A DNA stretch of 64,000 nucleotides, taken from assembly GCA_017532345.1 (NCBI GenBank), contig JAFXJJ010000004.1:1-64000 (forward strand), written 5' to 3'. The notes under the pieces are model-generated. The model was not told where the DNA came from and did no database searches. It worked only from the letters and a program-made list of their open reading frames with translations. This DNA comes from Erysipelotrichales bacterium. Its GTDB lineage: Bacteria > Bacillota_I > Bacilli_A > Erysipelotrichales > Erysipelotrichaceae. Position numbers and translations under genes: made by a program. Below are positions 31,901 through 46,552 of the stretch, piece by piece. Every line of letters begins with the position of its first letter. The stretch's first letter is position 1.

Positions 31901-34453
31901 ATGAGAAAGCTTATGTGTAAAATTCTTTCGACAGTGTTAATCGTGGCTACATGCTTAACAGGTTGTTCGAAGAGTGACACTTATGTTGCTGGTACTTATA
32001 CAGGTACTGGTGAAGGTTTTGGTGGTGCAGTAACAGCTACAATTACAGTTACTGGCTCTGAAATTACAGATGTTGTACTTGATGGACCAAGTGAAACTCC
32101 AAGTATTGGCGGAGCTGCATTTGAAACATTAAGAGACAAAATCTTAGAAGCTCAATCAGCAGAAGTTGATGTTGTTGCAGGTGCAACTTACTCTTCAAAT
32201 GGTGCTATTGAAGCTGTTAAGGCTGCAATTGAAAATGCGAAAAACGGTAATACAGCATCTGCTGGTGGTAATGTTCCAGTTACTTATACTGCTGGTACAT
32301 ACGAAGGAAATGGTGAAGGTTATCTTGGTAACGTTAAGTTAGCTGTAACATTCACAGAAGATGGTATTTCTGGTATTGAAGTAAAAGAATCAAAAGAAAC
32401 AGCTTATGTAGGTGATGCTGCTTATCCATACTTAATTGCTGATGCTATCGAAGCTAACGGTTCAGGTATTGATGTTGTATCTGGTGCTACATTCACATCA
32501 AAAGCATTCAAAGCTGCATTAACTGAAGCTGCAGAAGCTGCTAAGGCATCTGACATTGAAGGCTTTAAGAAAAATACAGTTACTCATGTAGCTGGACCTG
32601 ATGAAGATTTAGGTACATTCGACGTTATCGTTGTTGGTGCTGGTGGTGCTGGTATGGGGGCTGCTGCAGAAGCTGCTCAACGTGGATTATCAGTATTAGT
32701 TCTTGAATAAAACGCTGAAATCGGTGGTAATACATTAGTTTCAGGTGGTCAATTCCAAGCTGCAATGCCATATTTAGTATGGGATCCAGCTAACCCAGAT
32801 GCTACAGAAGCAACTTGGGAATATGATGGTAAAACATATCCAAAAGTAATGTCTGTTCAAGGTAATATCGATGTGTTAAAGACAATTGCTAATTGGTCTG
32901 AAGAACCATTTGATGAAGCATATTATGCTACACATGAATATGTAGCTGGTGAAATTGATGATATCTCATTACGTGGTGTTCATGCTGATTATTTACCAGT
33001 ATTAAAAGAATTAAAGAAAGAAATTAACGCTTACTTAGCATGGGCTCAACCTAAGCTAGATAAAGGCATTCCAGAAAGTCAAATTACATTATTCTCAACT
33101 AATAACTTACATATTTTCCAAACTTACTATGGTGGTTTAAGAAAAACTGCTGATGGTAGTGAATGGATTTATGGTGATGTTGAATTAGTAACTCAATTCA
33201 TCGAAGGTGGTTATGAATTAAAGACTTGGTTAGAAGATCAAGGTGCTGTATTTAATGATGGTGTTCAATTAACATTAATTGGTGCTTTATGGCATAGAGA
33301 AAACGTTAACCAAGGTTGCGATATTGATGGTGATGGTAAGATGGAAGCTACTGGAAACTGGGGTTCATACTTCCTTCCAACAAAAACTACTCTATTAGAA
33401 ACATCTCCAACAGCTAGTCAAAATAAATTATTAACTAGAACAACTGTTAAGAGCTTAGTAACTGAAAATGGTAAGGTTGTTGGTGTTACAGCTGAACGTT
33501 ATGATGGTACTAAATTAACTGCTAAGGCAAATGGTGGTGTTGTTATCACAACAGGTGGTTATGCTGCTAATGTAGAGATGGTTGTAGAAAATAACACATA
33601 TTGGGATTCTGAATATGTAACTAAAGCTATTAAAACAACTAACCGTTCTTCATTAGTAGGTTCTGGTATTGTAATGGGTGAAGAAGTTGGTGCTGCTACT
33701 ACTGGTATGGGCTTCCCTCAAATGATGCCTATTTCTTGGATTGACAATGGTAACTTAGCATTCGGTGGTGGACAATATGCTGTTTATATTAATCCTACTA
33801 CTGGTAAACGTTTCGTTAATGAATATGCTGAACGTGATGTATTATCATTAGGTGAATTCGCTAATGGTATTACTTATAATGGTGTTAAGGGTGTATTCAT
33901 GGAAATCACAAATGCTAAGACAGCAATCGGTTATCCATATCCATATGACACTTATGTATCTCCAGTAGAAGTTAAAGAATTATCTACAGATGATGTTGAA
34001 TCACGTGTTTACTTCTTCACTAGTCCTGAAGAATTAGGTGAAATCATGAAAGAATATGGTATGAGCGCTGATCCTAAGACAGTTTATGAAACAATTCGTG
34101 CTTATGATGCAAGCATCATGGCTGGTGAACAACCTTCTGATGGTGTTGGCAAATCAAGTGCTTCGACAACTGTTGGTACAGTTAAAGAAGATGGTTCATA
34201 TGCACTTGAAGGTGAATTATTAAGAGTTAGATTAATGGCTCCTTCTACTCACCATACAATGGGTGGCTTAGTTGTTGACTTAGATCGTCATGTATTAAAT
34301 GCTAATGGTGAAGTAATTGAAGGTTTATATGCTGCTGGTGAAGTAACTGGTGGTTTCCATGGTGGTAACCGTCTTGGTGGTAACGCTATTATTGAAATCT
34401 TCGTTTCAGGTAGAACAGCTGCTGATACTATTGCTGAATCAATGGGAAAATAA
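31901..34453 (+). pseudogene. Flavinylated flavocytochrome c/fumarate reductase-type lipoprotein, interrupted by an in-frame TAA
   Basis: Read as one frame this would be a protein of about 850 residues, but codon 270 (32708-32710) is TAA. The parts: a lipoprotein signal (lipobox LTGC, Cys about 22); two FMN_bind domains, each with a flavinylation motif (AGATYS about 93-98 and SGATFT about 193-198) for covalent FMN added by ApbE; then a FAD_binding_2/fumarate-reductase domain from about 245. The stop falls right after the first Rossmann strand-helix-strand (VVGAGGAGMGAAAEAAQRGLSVLVLE), where relatives usually continue with Lys/Gln-x-x-E-I-G-G-N-T, as here (NAEIGGNT). The frame resumes intact for 580 codons. 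Such enzymes are cell-surface reductases for fumarate, urocanate or similar acceptors. Truncation would leave a 269-residue lipoprotein with two FMN domains. Confidence 0.85.
32708..32710 (+). other. In-frame stop codon TAA within the flavoreductase
   Basis: The reading frame is the same before and after, so the lesion is one substitution (for instance AAA, CAA or GAA to TAA), not a frameshift. The next ATG in frame (32765) has no ribosome site, so separate translation of the C-terminal part is unlikely. Confidence 0.9.
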
Positions 34454-34658: not shown

Positions 34659-36269
34659 ATGGCAGAATTTTTACGAGTTACACAACCTATCGTGAATCGT
34701 GCAATGAATGTAACAGCACAAGGCAAGCCGTTACAAAATCCAACTGTACCTTTCCAGATTATAGATACTTCTAAAGTACAATCAATGTCGACTGGCAAGC
34801 AAATGTCTGAACAAAATCAAACATTAATTCTGGATGCTGATCAACCATCGATATTATCCCAAATGTTGCAAGATCCATCAGCAACAGTACATTTCTTACG
34901 TACTATTTATTTACTTCAAGAAGTTATTGGTATGATGCCAATGATTGATAGTCCAGTAAGTAAAGAAATAGAAGAATTATTCAATAATCTATTACTACAT
35001 CCAGATGATATTGTTGGAGAAATGATTAAACAAGAACAATCATCAACGTTATTTAAGGGTGAGTTATTTGATAATCTTCGTAATATGATAGATGAAATGG
35101 TTAAGTTTGATGTGCATAACTTAAAGGAAGCTTTAAATGAAGGAAAGAATAGTGGATTCTTATCTAATCTATTTACTTCTAATGAACAAGTAACTAATAA
35201 GACTGCCGAAAACTTAATGCATAATATGCAAAGTGGTGAACTACCACCTGAAGTAACATATGCCATCAAAGAGATGGGAGCTACCAATTATGAAGGGCAA
35301 ATTAAGAATGATATTGCTAGATTATTAAAAAATATGAATGGAGTAGCAAGTCGAAGAGATATACTTACATCGATTGGAAATAATCTTACATATTTATCCA
35401 CAGCATTAGCTCCACATAAAGCATTAGCTGAACAATTGCGTAATTTGGCAGAATGGTTTAAATATCCTAATGAAGAGTTTAATTTTACGAAGCTAAAACA
35501 ACTAGTAGCTGAGTGCACAACACAAGCTGAAAAGAGTGTACTATATAATGAGAAAGTAGCGAAGAATATCTCAATACTTCAATATAATTTCTCACGTTTT
35601 ATGGAGACTACTGAGGGCTTAGAAAAAGCTACTGAAAATATGTTTAAATATCTTTTAGATGAGAAAGATATGATTGAATTTAGAGATATGGTTTATAAAG
35701 AAGTTATTGCCATGAGTAATAAAGAAGGCAAAGAAAGTACTTCTAAAGTAATGACAACACTATGTAAATTGATTGAGAAACAAGTGGAGAATTCTACGTT
35801 AACTAATTTAAATAGTGAAAAGATTGAAAAGATTGTATATAGTTTACTGTCTTCTCCTACTAACTTCACACCACTTCTTCATTATGTAATTCCAGTGGAA
35901 TACATGAATATGAGAGCTTTTGCGGAAGTGTGGGTAGATCCACTATGTGAAGGTGATGAAGATGAAAACGGCAATAAAGGAAGTAAGAGTGACTTAACAC
36001 AAGTGCTAGTAGCATTTGATATTGATAGATTAGGACGTTTTGAAACAGAAATAATGATTAATAAGAACAAAATGAGTGCTTATGTCTATGTTCCTAATGA
36101 TTATTATGAAGTGTTTAAAGATATGAGTTATGATGTGATACAAGCGATAGCGAAAACATCATATACATTTGATAAGGTTGAAGTACGACCACTAGCTGCT
36201 CCACGATCATTGATGGAAGTGTTTAAAACATTACCTATAAGGAGAACGGGAATTAATGTCACAGTCTAG
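34659..36269 (+). CDS. FliK-like protein of unknown function (YlqG-type)
   Basis: 536 residues from the ATG at 34659, 8 bases after AAAGGGG; an upstream ATG at 34620 lacks a site. Most of the protein is helical and not recognised. The last 115 residues (VLVAFDIDRLGRFETEIMINKNKMSAYVYVPNDYYEVFKDMSYDVIQAIAKTSYTFDKVEVRPL) resemble the Flg_hook C-terminal domain of FliK: a core with LGxxxxxIxxxxxxxxxxV followed by a helix pair. It overlaps by 14 bases a gene for an orphan FlhB C-terminal domain. The same pair (ylqG-ylqH) exists in Bacillus, where the function is unsettled. It may interact with the orphan FlhB domain as FliK does with FlhB; this is inferred. Confidence 0.6.
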   Translation: MAEFLRVTQPIVNRAMNVTAQGKPLQNPTVPFQIIDTSKVQSMSTGKQMSEQNQTLILDADQPSILSQMLQDPSATVHFLRTIYLLQEVIGMMPMIDSPVSKEIEELFNNLLLHPDDIVGEMIKQEQSSTLFKGELFDNLRNMIDEMVKFDVHNLKEALNEGKNSGFLSNLFTSNEQVTNKTAENLMHNMQSGELPPEVTYAIKEMGATNYEGQIKNDIARLLKNMNGVASRRDILTSIGNNLTYLSTALAPHKALAEQLRNLAEWFKYPNEEFNFTKLKQLVAECTTQAEKSVLYNEKVAKNISILQYNFSRFMETTEGLEKATENMFKYLLDEKDMIEFRDMVYKEVIAMSNKEGKESTSKVMTTLCKLIEKQVENSTLTNLNSEKIEKIVYSLLSSPTNFTPLLHYVIPVEYMNMRAFAEVWVDPLCEGDEDENGNKGSKSDLTQVLVAFDIDRLGRFETEIMINKNKMSAYVYVPNDYYEVFKDMSYDVIQAIAKTSYTFDKVEVRPLAAPRSLMEVFKTLPIRRTGINVTV

Positions 36270-36528
36270 TCCTAAAAAGGCAGTTGCCTTAAAGTATAAT
36301 CCTAAGCAAGATGCAGCTCCATTAGTAATAGCTAGTGGGTATGGTGCAATAGCTGAGAAGATTATTAATATTGGTGAAGAAAAAGGCATTCCGATTTATC
36401 GTGATGATAGTACAGCTAGTATGTTATGTATGTTAGATGTAGGAAGTCCGATTCAACCAGAGCTATATCAAGTGGTCGCAGCAATTTATGCAGAAATATT
36501 AAAGAGAGCTGAGAAAGTTCAAAAATAA
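36256..36528 (+). CDS. Orphan FlhB C-terminal domain protein (FhlB/YlqH type)
   Basis: 90 residues covering only the cytoplasmic C-terminal domain of FlhB. It runs SPKKAVALKYNPKQDAAPLVIASGYGAIAEKIINIGEEKGIPIYRDDSTASMLCMLDVGSPIQPELYQVVAAIYAEI, matching FlhB after the NPTH site (ALKYxxxxDxAPxVxAxGxGxxAxxI). The NPTH motif itself is absent, so it cannot self-cleave and is equivalent to the already cut fragment. In other bacteria such FhlB proteins can replace the FlhB tail and influence export specificity. AAGGAG lies upstream, inside the preceding gene. Confidence 0.9.
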   Translation: MSQSSPKKAVALKYNPKQDAAPLVIASGYGAIAEKIINIGEEKGIPIYRDDSTASMLCMLDVGSPIQPELYQVVAAIYAEILKRAEKVQK

Positions 36529-36559
36529 AGATGGTTTGAGTAATTGAACCGTCTTTTTC
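36529..36559 (+). terminator. Terminator after the FhlB-type gene
   Basis: AGATGGTT (36529-36536) pairs with AACCGTCT (36547-36554, one G-T pair), then TTTTTCT. Confidence 0.85.
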
Positions 36560-36694: not shown

Positions 36695-37456
36695 ATGACA
36701 AAGATAATCACAATCACAAATCAAAAAGGCGGAGTAGGTAAAACAACAACGACTTCATCATTATCTGTAGTGTTGAAACGTCGTGGATATAAAGTATTAG
36801 TAATTGATATGGACCCACAAGGAAACTTGAGTTTCTGTTTAGGGGCAGATAATGTAATTAACGCAACAATTTATGATGTATTACGTGGGGAAATTCGTCC
36901 TCAATTCGCAATTCAACATACGGCAACAGTTGATGTAATACCAAGTAATATTTTATTAAGTGGTATTGAATTAGAGTTCACTAGTGCTGGACGTGAATAC
37001 TTATTAAAGAATGTAATTAATAGTATTAAAGGATTCTATGATTATATATTAATTGATACACCACCAGCATTATCAATCTTAACTGTTAATGCCCTTGCGG
37101 CATCAACGCACGTTATAATACCAATGGTGTGCGATATCTTCAGTGTACAAGGAATTACTCAATTAGTTGAATCGATTGCGAAAGTTAAAGAACTAGTTAA
37201 TGAAGATTTACAAATTGGTGGAGTTTTAGTAAATAAATTTAATAAACGTATTTTATTAAACAAAGAGGTTAAAGGTGCTGCTGAGTTAGTATTCCAAGAC
37301 TTAAATATTCCAATGTTTAAAACAACAATTAGAAATAGTATTGGCGTTACAGAAGCACAAGCATCTCAACAAGATATAACTTCATATGATCCTAAGAATG
37401 GTATTGTAAGAGATTATATTAGTTTAATCACTGAGATGCGTGAGAAAGGAATGTAG
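36695..37456 (+). CDS. ParA/MinD-type ATPase (Soj-like)
   Basis: 253 residues from the ATG at 36695, 4 bases after GGGAGG. It has the deviant Walker A KGGVGKTTT (about 11-19), the Soj-type MDPQGN, and the DTPPALS Walker B region. It lacks the N-terminal FlhF-activating DQAxxLR motif of FlhG. There is no parB gene or visible parS site beside it. Instead it is followed, 3 bases later, by a ComFB-like gene and then a PilZ gene, just before late flagellar genes. I infer a role in placing or partitioning a cellular machine (flagellum, chemoreceptor cluster) rather than DNA. Chromosomal Soj is an alternative. Confidence 0.85.
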   Translation: MTKIITITNQKGGVGKTTTTSSLSVVLKRRGYKVLVIDMDPQGNLSFCLGADNVINATIYDVLRGEIRPQFAIQHTATVDVIPSNILLSGIELEFTSAGREYLLKNVINSIKGFYDYILIDTPPALSILTVNALAASTHVIIPMVCDIFSVQGITQLVESIAKVKELVNEDLQIGGVLVNKFNKRILLNKEVKGAAELVFQDLNIPMFKTTIRNSIGVTEAQASQQDITSYDPKNGIVRDYISLITEMREKGM

Positions 37457-37459
37457 TTA

Positions 37460-37948
37460 ATGGCAACAAAAGCGAAAACAAAGTGTGATTTTGATAAAGA
37501 ATCGATGTATTCTAAAATAATGCCATCTGGGGCTAGAAAAAAAGAATTAGAAGCCGATGGAATTAATGAGGAAGAAATTGATTTATTAGCTGAAGCCAAT
37601 AAAACTTTAAATGAGGCAGCAGCTAGAACAGTGGAAGCACCTAAAGAAAAGAAAGTGTATTCTACTGCAGGTATTCATATTGTGAAGCCTGAAAAACAAA
37701 CGTTATTGATTAATGTTACAGAATATGCAGTTAATCGTAGAATAAACGAAGCATTTGCGAAGTTTAAATGTTGTAAATGCGATCGTTGTATGAAGGACGT
37801 TGCTGCTATAACATTAAATAAATTACCTGCGAAATATGTAGTAGTTGATGAAGATCAACTTGATGAAATAGTTGATGCTAATTCAGCAGATGTAATCCCT
37901 GCATTAGTATCAGCAATTATGGTTGTAAAGGCAAATCCACGCCACTAG
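37460..37948 (+). CDS. ComFB-like protein, possible cyclic-dinucleotide receptor
   Basis: 162 residues. After a charged N-terminus, the C-terminal half (about 80-155) matches the ComFB family (late competence development protein): LLINVTEYAVNRRINEAFAKF, the cysteine cluster C104-C105-x-C107-x-x-C110, and DVAAITLNKLPAKYVV. In the family the cysteines bind zinc, and cyanobacterial and other members have been reported to bind c-di-AMP or c-di-GMP. The ribosome site GAAAGGA is in the end of the parA gene, so the two are coupled. A role in competence is not suggested by the neighbours; motility signalling is more likely. Confidence 0.85.
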   Translation: MATKAKTKCDFDKESMYSKIMPSGARKKELEADGINEEEIDLLAEANKTLNEAAARTVEAPKEKKVYSTAGIHIVKPEKQTLLINVTEYAVNRRINEAFAKFKCCKCDRCMKDVAAITLNKLPAKYVVVDEDQLDEIVDANSADVIPALVSAIMVVKANPRH

Positions 37949-37958
37949 GAGTGATAGA

Positions 37959-38594
37959 ATGTTTGTAATTAACTACAAGTACGAAGGTGCTAGCTGCGAA
38001 ATTAAAAGTTTTGAAAATGAAAAAATTGCGATTGGTAAAATATATCGTACATATGCAGAATATCTTTGGATTTCTACGACGGAATCTTTGCGTAATGTTG
38101 AGAAGTATGAAGATATGCTTGTAAAGGTAGATGTAAGTCATGCATCGCTGACTAGCCTAACACTTATGGGAAAGCTAAGCATCGGTAAGCGTGGTGATAT
38201 CAAAATTACAAATGTTGAATTAATATCTGAAAACAATCAAAGAGAGTATTATAGAGTGAATTTAATGCGAGATGAGAAATTGAACTTAGTTGATAAAAGC
38301 GGTATGATAAATATGCAATTTAACACTAAGGTTATTGATATATCGTTAGGTGGGGCGTTGATTGAAAGTACTCTACAACTTCCTATCGGAAGAGAATTGA
38401 GTTTAAATGTCGAGGTTGGAAATGATAGTATTGTTTCATTAAAAGGAGTAATACTAAGAAAGCCTGATTCAGTAAACGGAAAGAATCGTTATGGAATGAA
38501 GTTTTATGAACACGACCAACTCGATGAATTAGTGACTCTTGGAATGTATTTGTTTAGAGTACAGGAAGAGAGTGATTTGAGGAATCTTTACTAA
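37959..38594 (+). CDS. PilZ-domain c-di-GMP receptor
   Basis: 211 residues. The N-terminal part (about 1-88) resembles a YcgR-type flagellar-brake beta barrel. The C-terminal PilZ domain carries both c-di-GMP motifs: R95-E-Y-Y-R99 (RxxxR) and D127-I-S129-L-G-G132 (DxSxxG). It should bind c-di-GMP and act on the flagellar motor, as YcgR/DgrA do. AGGAGTG lies upstream. It ends the parA-comFB-pilZ unit and fits with the EAL protein at 46553-48601. Confidence 0.88.
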   Translation: MFVINYKYEGASCEIKSFENEKIAIGKIYRTYAEYLWISTTESLRNVEKYEDMLVKVDVSHASLTSLTLMGKLSIGKRGDIKITNVELISENNQREYYRVNLMRDEKLNLVDKSGMINMQFNTKVIDISLGGALIESTLQLPIGRELSLNVEVGNDSIVSLKGVILRKPDSVNGKNRYGMKFYEHDQLDELVTLGMYLFRVQEESDLRNLY

Positions 38595-38863: not shown

Positions 38864-39163
38864 ATGAAAATCACAAATAGTACAGTGAATAAAGCATATA
38901 AAACAACATTAAGAATCAAGGAAGAACTATCAGTTAAGAAACAAGATAGTGTTTTTGAGAACACTGACGTTGTATCAATGTCGCAACAGGCTAAGAATGC
39001 AAACTTTGCAAGCAAAGTATCTAAAAATATCTGTGAAGATGTTGAAGCAAATTATAGTGCGGCTAAATTAAATGCTTTAAAACAAAAGATTCAAAATGGA
39101 GAGTACCGTGTATCTGATGAAGCATTAGCAGATGCTTTAATCTCTCATACATGGGAAGCTTAG
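38864..39163 (+). CDS. flgM: Anti-sigma-28 factor FlgM
   Basis: 99 residues from the ATG at 38864, 6 bases after AGAGGTG; an upstream GTG at 38855 overlaps the ribosome site. FlgM holds sigma-28 inactive until it is exported through the finished hook. The C-terminal half shows the family pattern: VVSMSQQAKNANFASKVSK, then AAKLNALKQKIQNGEYRVSDEALADALI. The N-terminus is poorly ordered as expected. A sigma-28-type promoter precedes it. Confidence 0.92.
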   Translation: MKITNSTVNKAYKTTLRIKEELSVKKQDSVFENTDVVSMSQQAKNANFASKVSKNICEDVEANYSAAKLNALKQKIQNGEYRVSDEALADALISHTWEA

Positions 39164-39167
39164 TAAT

Positions 39168-39617
39168 ATGACTGAAAATCAATGCAAGATGAAGGAGTTC
39201 TTAAAGGAATATTTAGAGCTTTTTGAAGGTGTGTTAGTAGATGAAAAGGAAAAGTTAAAAAACTTCACTACTTTTGATATTAATAAAATCAATGCATCTA
39301 TCGCAAAGCAACAAGCAAATGAATTAAAGATTGCGAATATTGAAACTAAAAGAATTGAACTTCAAAAAGTATTGGGATATGAAAATATGACTTTTAAAGA
39401 AATCATCGCTACTTTTGATGATAAGAAGGAAGTTAATGAACTTTATCGTAAAGTTAGTACAACTGTTCATGATATTAAATTCTATAACCAAAAGGCTATG
39501 GAATTAGCAAAAGGACAAATTGCGTTATTTGAAACAGTATCAAAGGAAAGTTCAACATATTCAAAAACAAAACAAAAATTTGAAAATCAAGAACAAATTA
39601 TAAAAGAAAAGTTCTAG
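39168..39617 (+). CDS. flgN: FlgN-type flagellar export chaperone
   Basis: 149 residues, helical and coiled-coil throughout, with the FlgN-like N-terminal LFEGVLVDEKEKLKNFTTFDINKINASIAKQQANELKI. FlgN (YvyG) escorts the junction proteins FlgK and FlgL to the export gate. Sequence conservation is low; the place between flgM and flgK is decisive. The ribosome site is weak (GGAAG), and the 4-base gap from flgM suggests coupling. Confidence 0.85.
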   Translation: MTENQCKMKEFLKEYLELFEGVLVDEKEKLKNFTTFDINKINASIAKQQANELKIANIETKRIELQKVLGYENMTFKEIIATFDDKKEVNELYRKVSTTVHDIKFYNQKAMELAKGQIALFETVSKESSTYSKTKQKFENQEQIIKEKF

Positions 39618-39630
39618 AAAGGAGCTAACT

Positions 39631-41121
39631 ATGGCAGTTAGATCAACTTTTTTAGGTATAGAGGTATCTAAGCGTGGCTTAGCTGTAAGCCAAAAAGGCT
39701 TAGATATCACATCTAACAACGTAGCTAATATTAATACACCAGGATATACTAGACAACGTGTTGATATCTCAAGTGTAAATATGTCAGGAAGTTATCGTTA
39801 TCCTACAGGATCAATTGATAATGCTGGGCAAGGTTCGCAAGTGGATGGTATCGCACAGATTCGTAATAAATTCTTGGATGTTCGTTTCCGTGATTCCAAC
39901 TCAAATACAGGATATTACGAACAACAAGTAAGTATTCTTACAGGTGTACAAAATGCAATTGATGAAATTTCGAGTGATGGGTTATTAACAGTTTACCAAG
40001 AAGCTATGGACGCAATTCAAAATCTTAGCTTAAATCCTAATGACTCAGTTTATGCTGCAACAGCAAAATCAGCTGTCAATAATGTATCATTAATTCTACA
40101 ACAATTTGATAAGTCATTACGTGATGTAGCTGAACAACAAATTTATGATACAAGTGTAATTATTGATAGTGCAAATACATGTTTAGATAAGATTGCAACT
40201 ATTAATAAAGCGTTATTATTAGAAAGTAATAATGAATTAAGTAATGTATATTCATCAAATGAATTAAATGACCAATTAAATTATTTAATTGATGAATTAT
40301 CAGAATACGCAAATATTGATGTTACTTGGGAAGATGATACTACAGTAACAATTAAGATTAATGGACACACAGTTGTTGAGGGTGCTTGGTGTGACAAACT
40401 TCAATTAAATGAACACAACAATTCTACTATTGATGTAATTTATAAATCATCTGGTGAACAAGCTTCATTTAGTGGTGGATCAATTAAAGCTAATACTGAT
40501 TACATTAATGGTGATAGCTCAGTAACTAAAGGTATCCAATACTATATTCATCGTATGGATGACTTTGCAGTACATTTTGCTGGTGTAATGAATAACACTA
40601 TTCAAGAGTATAAGCTTGATGAAGATGGTAATCAGATTTTAGATGCTAATGGAGATCCTGTTGTTCAGTATAAAACATTAATTCAAACTAATGATGGTAC
40701 TGATACAATTACAGCAGGTAATATCACAATTTCTGATATTTGGAGAGCAAATGAATCTTATATTATTAATGATAGACCTGAAGGTACTAACCAAAATACA
40801 TCCTTCTTACAATTAATCAGTAAGATGGAAGGCGACTTGAAGATTGATAATTTCCAAGGAAGTCTAGAAGAGTTTATTGAAACTTTAAATACAGATGTGG
40901 GGGAAGATATTGTCTTCGCAAAATCTAGATATGATGCATGTCAAATCATCACAACTGATTTAGATAACTCACGCGATGAAATTAGTGGTGTATCATATGA
41001 TGAAGAAGGTGCTAACTTAATTATGTATGAAAAGGCATATAGTGCAATGGCTCGTGTAATGACAGCGATGGACGAAGTGCTAGAAAAACTAATTAATGGT
41101 ACTGGATTAGTAGGTAGATAG
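39631..41121 (+). CDS. flgK: Flagellar hook-filament junction protein FlgK
   Basis: 496 residues. FlgK (HAP1) is the first junction protein between hook and filament. The N-terminal signature SQKGLDITSNNVANINTPGYTRQRVDI is complete, with the FLDVRFRDSNSNTGYYEQQ region next, and the C-terminal SGVSYDEEGANLIMYEKAYSAMARVMTAMDEVLEKLIN is typical. AGAAAGGAG precedes the start. The central part (about 230-400) is variable. Confidence 0.95.
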   Translation: MAVRSTFLGIEVSKRGLAVSQKGLDITSNNVANINTPGYTRQRVDISSVNMSGSYRYPTGSIDNAGQGSQVDGIAQIRNKFLDVRFRDSNSNTGYYEQQVSILTGVQNAIDEISSDGLLTVYQEAMDAIQNLSLNPNDSVYAATAKSAVNNVSLILQQFDKSLRDVAEQQIYDTSVIIDSANTCLDKIATINKALLLESNNELSNVYSSNELNDQLNYLIDELSEYANIDVTWEDDTTVTIKINGHTVVEGAWCDKLQLNEHNNSTIDVIYKSSGEQASFSGGSIKANTDYINGDSSVTKGIQYYIHRMDDFAVHFAGVMNNTIQEYKLDEDGNQILDANGDPVVQYKTLIQTNDGTDTITAGNITISDIWRANESYIINDRPEGTNQNTSFLQLISKMEGDLKIDNFQGSLEEFIETLNTDVGEDIVFAKSRYDACQIITTDLDNSRDEISGVSYDEEGANLIMYEKAYSAMARVMTAMDEVLEKLINGTGLVGR

Positions 41122-41134
41122 GAGGTAGCATAAC

Positions 41135-42115
41135 ATGACAAGAGTAACGCAAAAAGCAATTAATCGTACATATCTTTCAGGCTACAACAAAAACCTTTCG
41201 GCCTATAATACTTCAATTAATAAAATGAATACAGGTAGAAGCTTTTTAAAGGTTTCTGAAAATGTATCAGGTGCTGCACGTACTTATAAAGTACGTAAAG
41301 CCTTGTCAAGAGATGAACAATATATTGAAAATATTGAGGATTTATCAGATAGAATTGAATCTGCTGAAGATGGTTTACGCGATATAAATGAATATATTCA
41401 AACTGTTCAAGAAAGATTAGTTCAAGCTCAAGGGACAGCTAGTGAGGAAGAATACAAAGTATTAGCTAGAGAAATAGATGACCTTGTTAATAACTGCATG
41501 CAAGCAATCAATAATTCTAATACTGGTGTTTATGTATTTGCTACTAATGTCAACGAACCACCTTTCACATTAAGTGAAAAGGGTGAACTATTCTTTAGAG
41601 ATGGAACTAATGTAAATGAGATAACAGATCGTTTAGATCATGAAACTGATGTGTATGCGGATATTGGTGCAGGTATGACATTTGAAGGTGATGAACTAAA
41701 TACAGCAAGCGTAACAGCAAACTCAGTTTCAGCACTGGAATGTTTAGGATATGGCACTACTAACGTAGATGGGACTACATATTCAAATAATGTTATTTCA
41801 TTACTTCAACAAGTTGCAGATACAATTCGTACTGGAGATCGAGAAGCAATGGGAAAAATTGAAGGCTTCTTAGATAAAAGATATAAGGATTTCGTAGTTA
41901 ACTTAACGAATGTAGGTAATACTTCAAAGTTCTTAGATGATTGTAAGTCTAGAATCGAAAATGAAGTTGCTGCATTAACAGAACGTCAAAATGATTTAGA
42001 AGCAGTAGATTATGCAGAGGAAGCAATAGTTTCTCAAACATATTACATGGCATATCAAATTAGTATTCAAATGGGCTCTAAGATATTGCCAAAATCAATT
42101 TTCAGTTTTATTTAA
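41135..42115 (+). CDS. flgL: Flagellar hook-filament junction protein FlgL
   Basis: 326 residues, flagellin-like ends. FlgL (HAP3) joins FlgK to the filament. The N-terminal part is MTRVTQKAINRTYLSGYNKNLSAYNTSINKMNTGRSFLKVSENVSGAARTYKVRKAL and the C-terminus ends in YMAYQISIQMGSKILPKSIFSFI, matching the C-terminal flagellin helix (LP.SL.dFL). It is slightly longer than many Firmicutes FlgL. GGAGG is 9 bases upstream. Confidence 0.93.
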   Translation: MTRVTQKAINRTYLSGYNKNLSAYNTSINKMNTGRSFLKVSENVSGAARTYKVRKALSRDEQYIENIEDLSDRIESAEDGLRDINEYIQTVQERLVQAQGTASEEEYKVLAREIDDLVNNCMQAINNSNTGVYVFATNVNEPPFTLSEKGELFFRDGTNVNEITDRLDHETDVYADIGAGMTFEGDELNTASVTANSVSALECLGYGTTNVDGTTYSNNVISLLQQVADTIRTGDREAMGKIEGFLDKRYKDFVVNLTNVGNTSKFLDDCKSRIENEVAALTERQNDLEAVDYAEEAIVSQTYYMAYQISIQMGSKILPKSIFSFI

Positions 42116-46530: not shown

Positions 46531-46552
46531 TTAAATGCAGGAGGTGTTCATT

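Follow-up and report, generated by a model that had tools for sequence, protein, structure and literature searches.

The usual flagellum-placing protein is FlhF, an SRP-type GTPase, which in the FlhF-FlhG system stands beside FlhG (also named YlxH, FleN or MinD2), an ATPase of the ParA/MinD superfamily that is linked with flagellar genes. A review suggests that there are "newer regulatory systems" in motile species without FlhF and FlhG (PMC12826062). Partners of ParA/MinD ATPases bind the ATPase through a charged N-terminal peptide, and the remainder of the partner serves the cargo (PMC10241942); in McdA-McdB, PpfA-TlpT and ParC-ParP the partner encoded next to the ParA ATPase has a basic peptide at its N-terminus and a distinct domain for the cargo. 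ComFB proteins such as B. subtilis ComFB and Synechocystis CdgR are encoded with comFA/comFC or hfq. Binding of c-di-AMP and c-di-GMP by ComFBs is known for cyanobacterial homologues only (PMC12313861). Here we analysed a stretch of 64,000 nucleotides from a gut-type Erysipelotrichales bacterium, henceforth the window, in which the genes for a ParA ATPase and for a protein with a ComFB domain stand side by side among flagellar genes. Judged by sequence, this pair recurs across many Clostridia.

The window comprises bases 1-64,000 of contig C10, in an assembly of 2.1 Mb that is 89% complete. A gene for a ParA-family ATPase (36695-37456, plus strand; 253 aa; Pfam AAA_31, 7.4e-56) is followed after 3 bases by the gene for the ComFB-domain partner (37460-37948, plus strand; 162 aa; Pfam ComFB, 1.7e-15) and, 10 bases further on, by a PilZ gene (37959-38594, plus strand; 211 aa; Pfam PilZ, 1.6e-10). 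The initial annotation had described these three genes, their 3- and 10-base spacers and their domains, with flagellar genes on both sides and an EAL protein nearby; re-reading of the open reading frames and Pfam searches confirmed all of this. Upstream lies an orphan gene for an FlhB C-terminal domain (FlhB2; 36256-36528, plus strand; TIGR00789, 2e-24), downstream the flgM, flgN, flgK, flgL operon (38864-42115, plus strand) and then a DUF6470 gene, fliW, fliD and fliS, and a PAS-GGDEF-EAL protein gene is found at position 46535. Hungatella and C. citroniae likewise have FlhB2 next to the locus of the pair. Beside FlhB2 the window encodes a 535 aa protein (34662-36269) with no Pfam family over cut-off, which is conserved at this place in Hungatella and C. 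citroniae. Further upstream (31901-34453) is a flavoprotein reductase whose FMN-binding and FAD-binding halves form two adjacent open reading frames, perhaps a frameshift or a split gene. A hairpin resembling an intrinsic terminator (36527-36556, plus strand) separates FlhB2 from the three genes, and was the only one found by a scan in which 1.1 were expected by chance. Scanning for the sigma-28 promoter pattern gave no signal, and the sigma-70 scan returned fewer matches than chance.

The main flagellar operon occupies positions 423-24342 on the plus strand and comprises bactofilin, flgB/C, fliF-K, flgD, flgE, motAB, fliM/N, fliO/P/R, flhB, flhA, fliA, flgF, flgG and fapA; no flhF, flhG or che gene was identified in it. 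Its first gene (423-992) encodes the bactofilin. In B. subtilis bactofilins are required for hook and filament assembly (PMC4627819); phmmer found no bactofilin homologue in the other fetched flagellar loci. A search of 117 order-level relatives of the window genome revealed no FliF, and ComFB was absent from the same 117 and from 391 other genomes of the phylum sample. We considered a mis-binned contig and rejected it: RicT, encoded at the end of this contig, shares 77% identity with that of a same-genus genome and 47-66% with those of the family and order, a gradient that makes contamination unlikely. The organism is therefore a flagellated member of a clade otherwise seemingly without flagella. 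The full flagellar operon, which shares its contig with the ParA-ComFB pair, would represent an acquisition or a rare retention. The genome also encodes a second, free-standing ComFB of 94 aa without the N-terminal peptide (contig C67; L001 1468-1752), adjoined by aroA- and tyrA-like genes.

A pattern scan of named genomes returned 80 ComFB loci; the pattern alignment included two invented guide rows, and every match was confirmed by tblastn with the window ComFB. An earlier contig scan with a narrow ComFB pattern had returned nothing, as did viral scans with ComFB and a single ParA. ParA and ComFB are adjacent in 25 of the 80 loci from other genomes, a recurrence beyond chance, and phmmer searches of the open reading frames with the window proteins revealed a ParA gene immediately before the long ComFBs, which resemble that of the window, but not before the short ones. 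Near their basic N-terminus the former share a peptide with the consensus DK[ED]xM[YF]xK[IL]MP. ParA lies directly upstream of all 24 peptide-bearing ComFBs and of one of the 56 without the peptide (p = 1.5e-19); because the motif had been derived from these very loci, this value describes an association and not a prediction. The single exception, L182, belongs to a second type of the pair. In a second sample of 295 Lachnospirales genomes, 120 of which contain ComFB, 23 ComFBs of 229-410 aa have ParA directly upstream and fliD adjacent (23/23 type-2 loci). Their N-terminal peptide reads [KR]K[ST][SN]KTAHVLNLIS and goes with a second ParA clade, so that ParA clade and peptide type match (tree branches starred at 100 and 98). 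Two genomes, G670 and G756, have lost ParA and the peptide together and kept the linker and the ComFB domain, and their sisters G684 and G568 keep everything; this loss, a single event, is what one would expect of a peptide that serves ParA.

The window ComFB consists of a basic N-terminus with the conserved peptide, a variable linker and a zinc ComFB domain. Its peptide, DKESMYSKIMP (aa 12-22; codons at 37493-37525, plus strand), is proposed to be the ParA-contacting tag, and forms a short helix in the predicted model. Among 23 aligned homologues D12, K13, M16, M21 and P22 are invariant and the linker varies. Also invariant in these homologues are the zinc-type ligands C105, C107, C110 and H162 of the ComFB domain (aa 83-162; codons at 37706-37945, plus strand), a CxCxxC motif with a distal Cys/His ligand that was assigned by comparison with B. 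subtilis ComFB (PMC4381287). In the predicted structure the ComFB domain is modelled with confidence, whereas the N-terminal part, which contains short helices, has low confidence; its best Foldseek matches are 4wai (B. subtilis ComFB) and 8hja (Synechocystis CdgR with c-di-GMP). The window protein thus shares the fold of the known ComFBs and the zinc ligand pattern of the B. subtilis protein, but differs from them by about 80 extra N-terminal residues that include the peptide, and by being partnered with ParA. A nearby cognate partner with a charged N-terminal peptide is what characterizes ParA/MinD positioning systems, and ComFB looks like this partner for the window ParA; the sequence case for ParA and ComFB as a cognate pair is strong. 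The initial annotation had spoken of a ParA without ParB or parS. No ParB gene adjoins the window ParA, but the wording needs revision because ComFB carries a ParB-like N-terminal peptide and is probably the partner. We found no described system with ParA and ComFB in the open-licence library that was searched. Compared to McdA-McdB, PpfA-TlpT and ParC-ParP, the second domain of the partner is here a ComFB domain, with a cyclic-dinucleotide receptor fold, and the cargo seems to be flagellar.

Flagellar genes stand beside the pair in the window and in 15 of 24 type-1 loci, mostly at the flgM-flgN-flgK operon (14 of these other loci have flgM-flgN-flgK-flgL); in the other nine, the fetched stretch contains no flagellar gene. 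FliF is present in 19 of 21 pair genomes tested. In the two small ones without it (L114 and L119) the pair is found near mreC, mreD, PBP2 and a minD-like gene, possibly reflecting another cargo or the loss of the flagellum. Among the 193 Lachnospirales genomes with FliF, many of the sampled genomes being metagenome assemblies, 24 carry the pair. With G670 and G756 set aside, FlhF was detected in 0/24 flagellated genomes with the pair and in 157/167 without it (Fisher p = 6.6e-23, uncorrected for kinship). It was likewise absent from all 21 pair genomes of the named set (Hungatella is counted in both samples). In the window genome, 89% complete, the best FlhF match scored 76.6 bits (cut-off 174), none was full-length, and the matches were of the level of FtsY and Ffh; no FlhG-like match was found.

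A FliF tree of 90 rows places the pair-bearing flagella, with some unassigned ones, in a starred lineage B of 51 rows that has no FlhF, and all FlhF-bearing flagella outside it. The window FliF groups with type-1 members only, in a starred set of 11 rows. Two lineage B genomes at first classed as "neither" were reassigned to a ParA with a peptide-2 partner: G493 encodes ParA and a divergent ComFB partner with the second peptide (hhalign 97.7%), and G491 encodes ParA and a second-peptide partner without a recognisable ComFB domain; seven genomes, from Oscillospiraceae, stay "neither". Two divergent loci of this kind deserve mention. L352 (7465-8942) has the order PilZ-ParA-divergent ComFB, with the peptide KTNKTNAVLNLL. 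In L354 (7914 to ~9330) ParA is followed by a partner with an STKTKHVMDLV peptide and no recognisable ComFB domain; the second half of the adaptor may be exchangeable. As the tree shows essentially one deep lineage, the exclusion of FlhF does not represent 24 independent events; that count was rejected, since the tree allows only 2-3 independent pairs. The exclusion is strong as a pattern, with few evolutionary events underneath. Within the sample, FlhF-FlhG and ParA-ComFB are mutually exclusive, and they likely share the task of setting flagellar place or number. Unlike FlhF-FlhG, the pair comes without the FlhF GTPase, its ParA is Soj-like and not MinD-like, and its partner is a ComFB protein. 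Because it is almost always found with a flagellum and never with FlhF, the pair is probably another way to set flagellar place or number.

Starting from the directly observed pairing, co-divergence, peptide-linker-domain architecture, flagellar context and absence of FlhF, we propose that ParA and ComFB set the position or the number of flagella, or of a part coupled to them, instead of FlhF-FlhG, with ComFB as a cargo adaptor that may be gated by cyclic dinucleotides; we give this reading a probability of roughly 55%. By analogy with published ParA/MinD systems, the ATP-bound ParA dimer would ride the nucleoid, and the N-terminal peptide of ComFB would dock on this dimer and trigger hydrolysis, so that ComFB would act as a ParB-like adaptor between ParA and its cargo. 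Genomic context suggests that the ComFB dimer would bind the flagellum or a structure coupled to it, a flagellar cargo being probable, and that the pair would take on the control of flagellar place or number that elsewhere falls to FlhF and FlhG. If the ComFB domain binds c-di-AMP or c-di-GMP, as ComFB homologues do, the nucleotide may set the engagement of the adaptor with the cargo or with ParA. This gating is the weakest step of the model, and leans on the cyanobacterial ComFB/CdgR proteins (PMC12313861, PMC13075795).

If the partner is an adaptor, could its cargo be something other than the flagellum? The pair might position chemoreceptor arrays, as PpfA-TlpT and ParC-ParP do, and merely ride along with flagellar genes. 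Arrays are known to be placed by ParA-type systems (PMC10241942), the surroundings of type-2 loci include CheV, CheC, CheD and EAL-HDOD genes (e.g. L240 8147-11965), and CheW adjoins the pair in L112. However, no chemotaxis gene was identified across the flagellar regions of the window, the genes that most constantly stand close to the pair are flgM-flgN-flgK and fliD, and the exclusion of FlhF would be unexpected for an array positioner. We consider this explanation unlikely, though it is the best of the alternatives. Somewhat less likely still is a purely regulatory switch, in which ComFB would bind a cyclic dinucleotide and ParA would switch flagellar expression or a checkpoint with no spatial role. 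CdgR does act through a transcription factor, DevH (PMC13075795), FlhG has regulatory roles too, and the pair lies beside the anti-sigma gene flgM and beside fliD; against this, no DNA-binding regulator is linked to the pair, and in its N-terminal peptide ComFB is built like a ParA adaptor.

The initial annotation had proposed ParA, ComFB and PilZ as one unit whose members should be kept together in relatives. This holds for ParA and ComFB (the 25/80 loci mentioned above), but not for PilZ, which adjoins the pair only in the window, directly downstream, and in L352, directly upstream of ParA. Nine other type-1 loci and the two divergent loci have a PilZ homologue no more than ~10 kb from the pair (at a distance in L112, L113, L115, L117, L120, L124, L131, L134, L144 and L354), and none was seen in 28 scanned Lachnospirales regions, 23 of which contain a type-2 pair. 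The window PilZ protein has both c-di-GMP motifs, RxxxR (REYYR, 95-99) and DxSxxG (DISLGG, 127-132), as do YcgR/MotI-type proteins, and its predicted two-domain fold is MrkH-like and matches 5kgo, 5vx6 (MotI/DgrA) and 5y6f (YcgR) in Foldseek. It shares this fold and these motifs with the YcgR/MotI (DgrA) flagellar brakes, but has low sequence identity to them and is encoded with ParA-ComFB. PilZ is a variable neighbour of the MotI/YcgR type, found around the core but not part of it; it would act as a separate c-di-GMP effector that happens to share a row with the pair in the window genome. A true trio, with the three proteins in one c-di-GMP-controlled complex, is suggested by the co-directional, closely spaced genes of the window, the arrangement in L352 and the ten further loci with PilZ within ~10 kb. 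Considering that PilZ is non-adjacent in most type-1 loci and absent from 28/28 scanned Lachnospirales regions, we regard it as improbable.

The window ParA belongs to the type-1 clade, and has the deviant Walker A motif KGGVGKTT that is typical of ParA/MinD positioning ATPases; no membrane-targeting tail was seen in it, and in the FlhG test it scored far below the MinD cut-offs. It is 50-59% identical to most ParAs of other ComFB pairs, 48% identical to the nearest phage ParA and 42% identical to the genome's own Soj, which is encoded apart from it, in an rsmG-noc-soj-parB locus on contig C87, an arrangement that points to a Bacillota. Four phage ParAs (L028-L031) are 41-48% identical to it, and have a small partner gene that starts at or overlaps the ParA stop. 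In the ParA tree a 100% branch splits the type-1 ParAs, the window protein included, from the phage ParAs and the own Soj, and type-2 ParAs form a separate branch, also apart from these. It shares the ParA fold with Soj of Soj-Spo0J/ParABS, but lacks ParB and falls in another clade. That the pair is a segregation cassette for a chromosome, plasmid or integrated element, left beside flagellar genes, is very improbable: the ParA fold and the 46-48% identity to phage ParAs with a small downstream partner speak for it, but the 100% branch, a partner that is ComFB and not a DNA-binding ParB or RHH protein, the genome's own Soj-ParB, and a neighbourhood kept across orders all speak against it.

Flagellar placement by ParA and ComFB stays our preferred reading. 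It offers a concrete two-gene candidate for the placement of flagella without FlhF and FlhG, and suggests what the ComFB domain may do in motile Clostridia of the gut. The two peptide types allow specificity-swap tests, and G670 and G756 provide a natural case of loss. More tentatively, and with less than even odds, a separate flagellar lineage of Clostridia and their relatives may have swapped FlhF-FlhG for a nucleoid-riding ParA with a cyclic-dinucleotide-receptor adaptor, in a module that moves between orders with the flagellar operon; if such transfer occurs, the window genome, in an otherwise non-flagellated family, would be an example. On this reading the level of a second messenger would directly set the place or the number of the flagella that are built, and the pair may connect cyclic dinucleotides directly with a positioning machine of the ParA kind.
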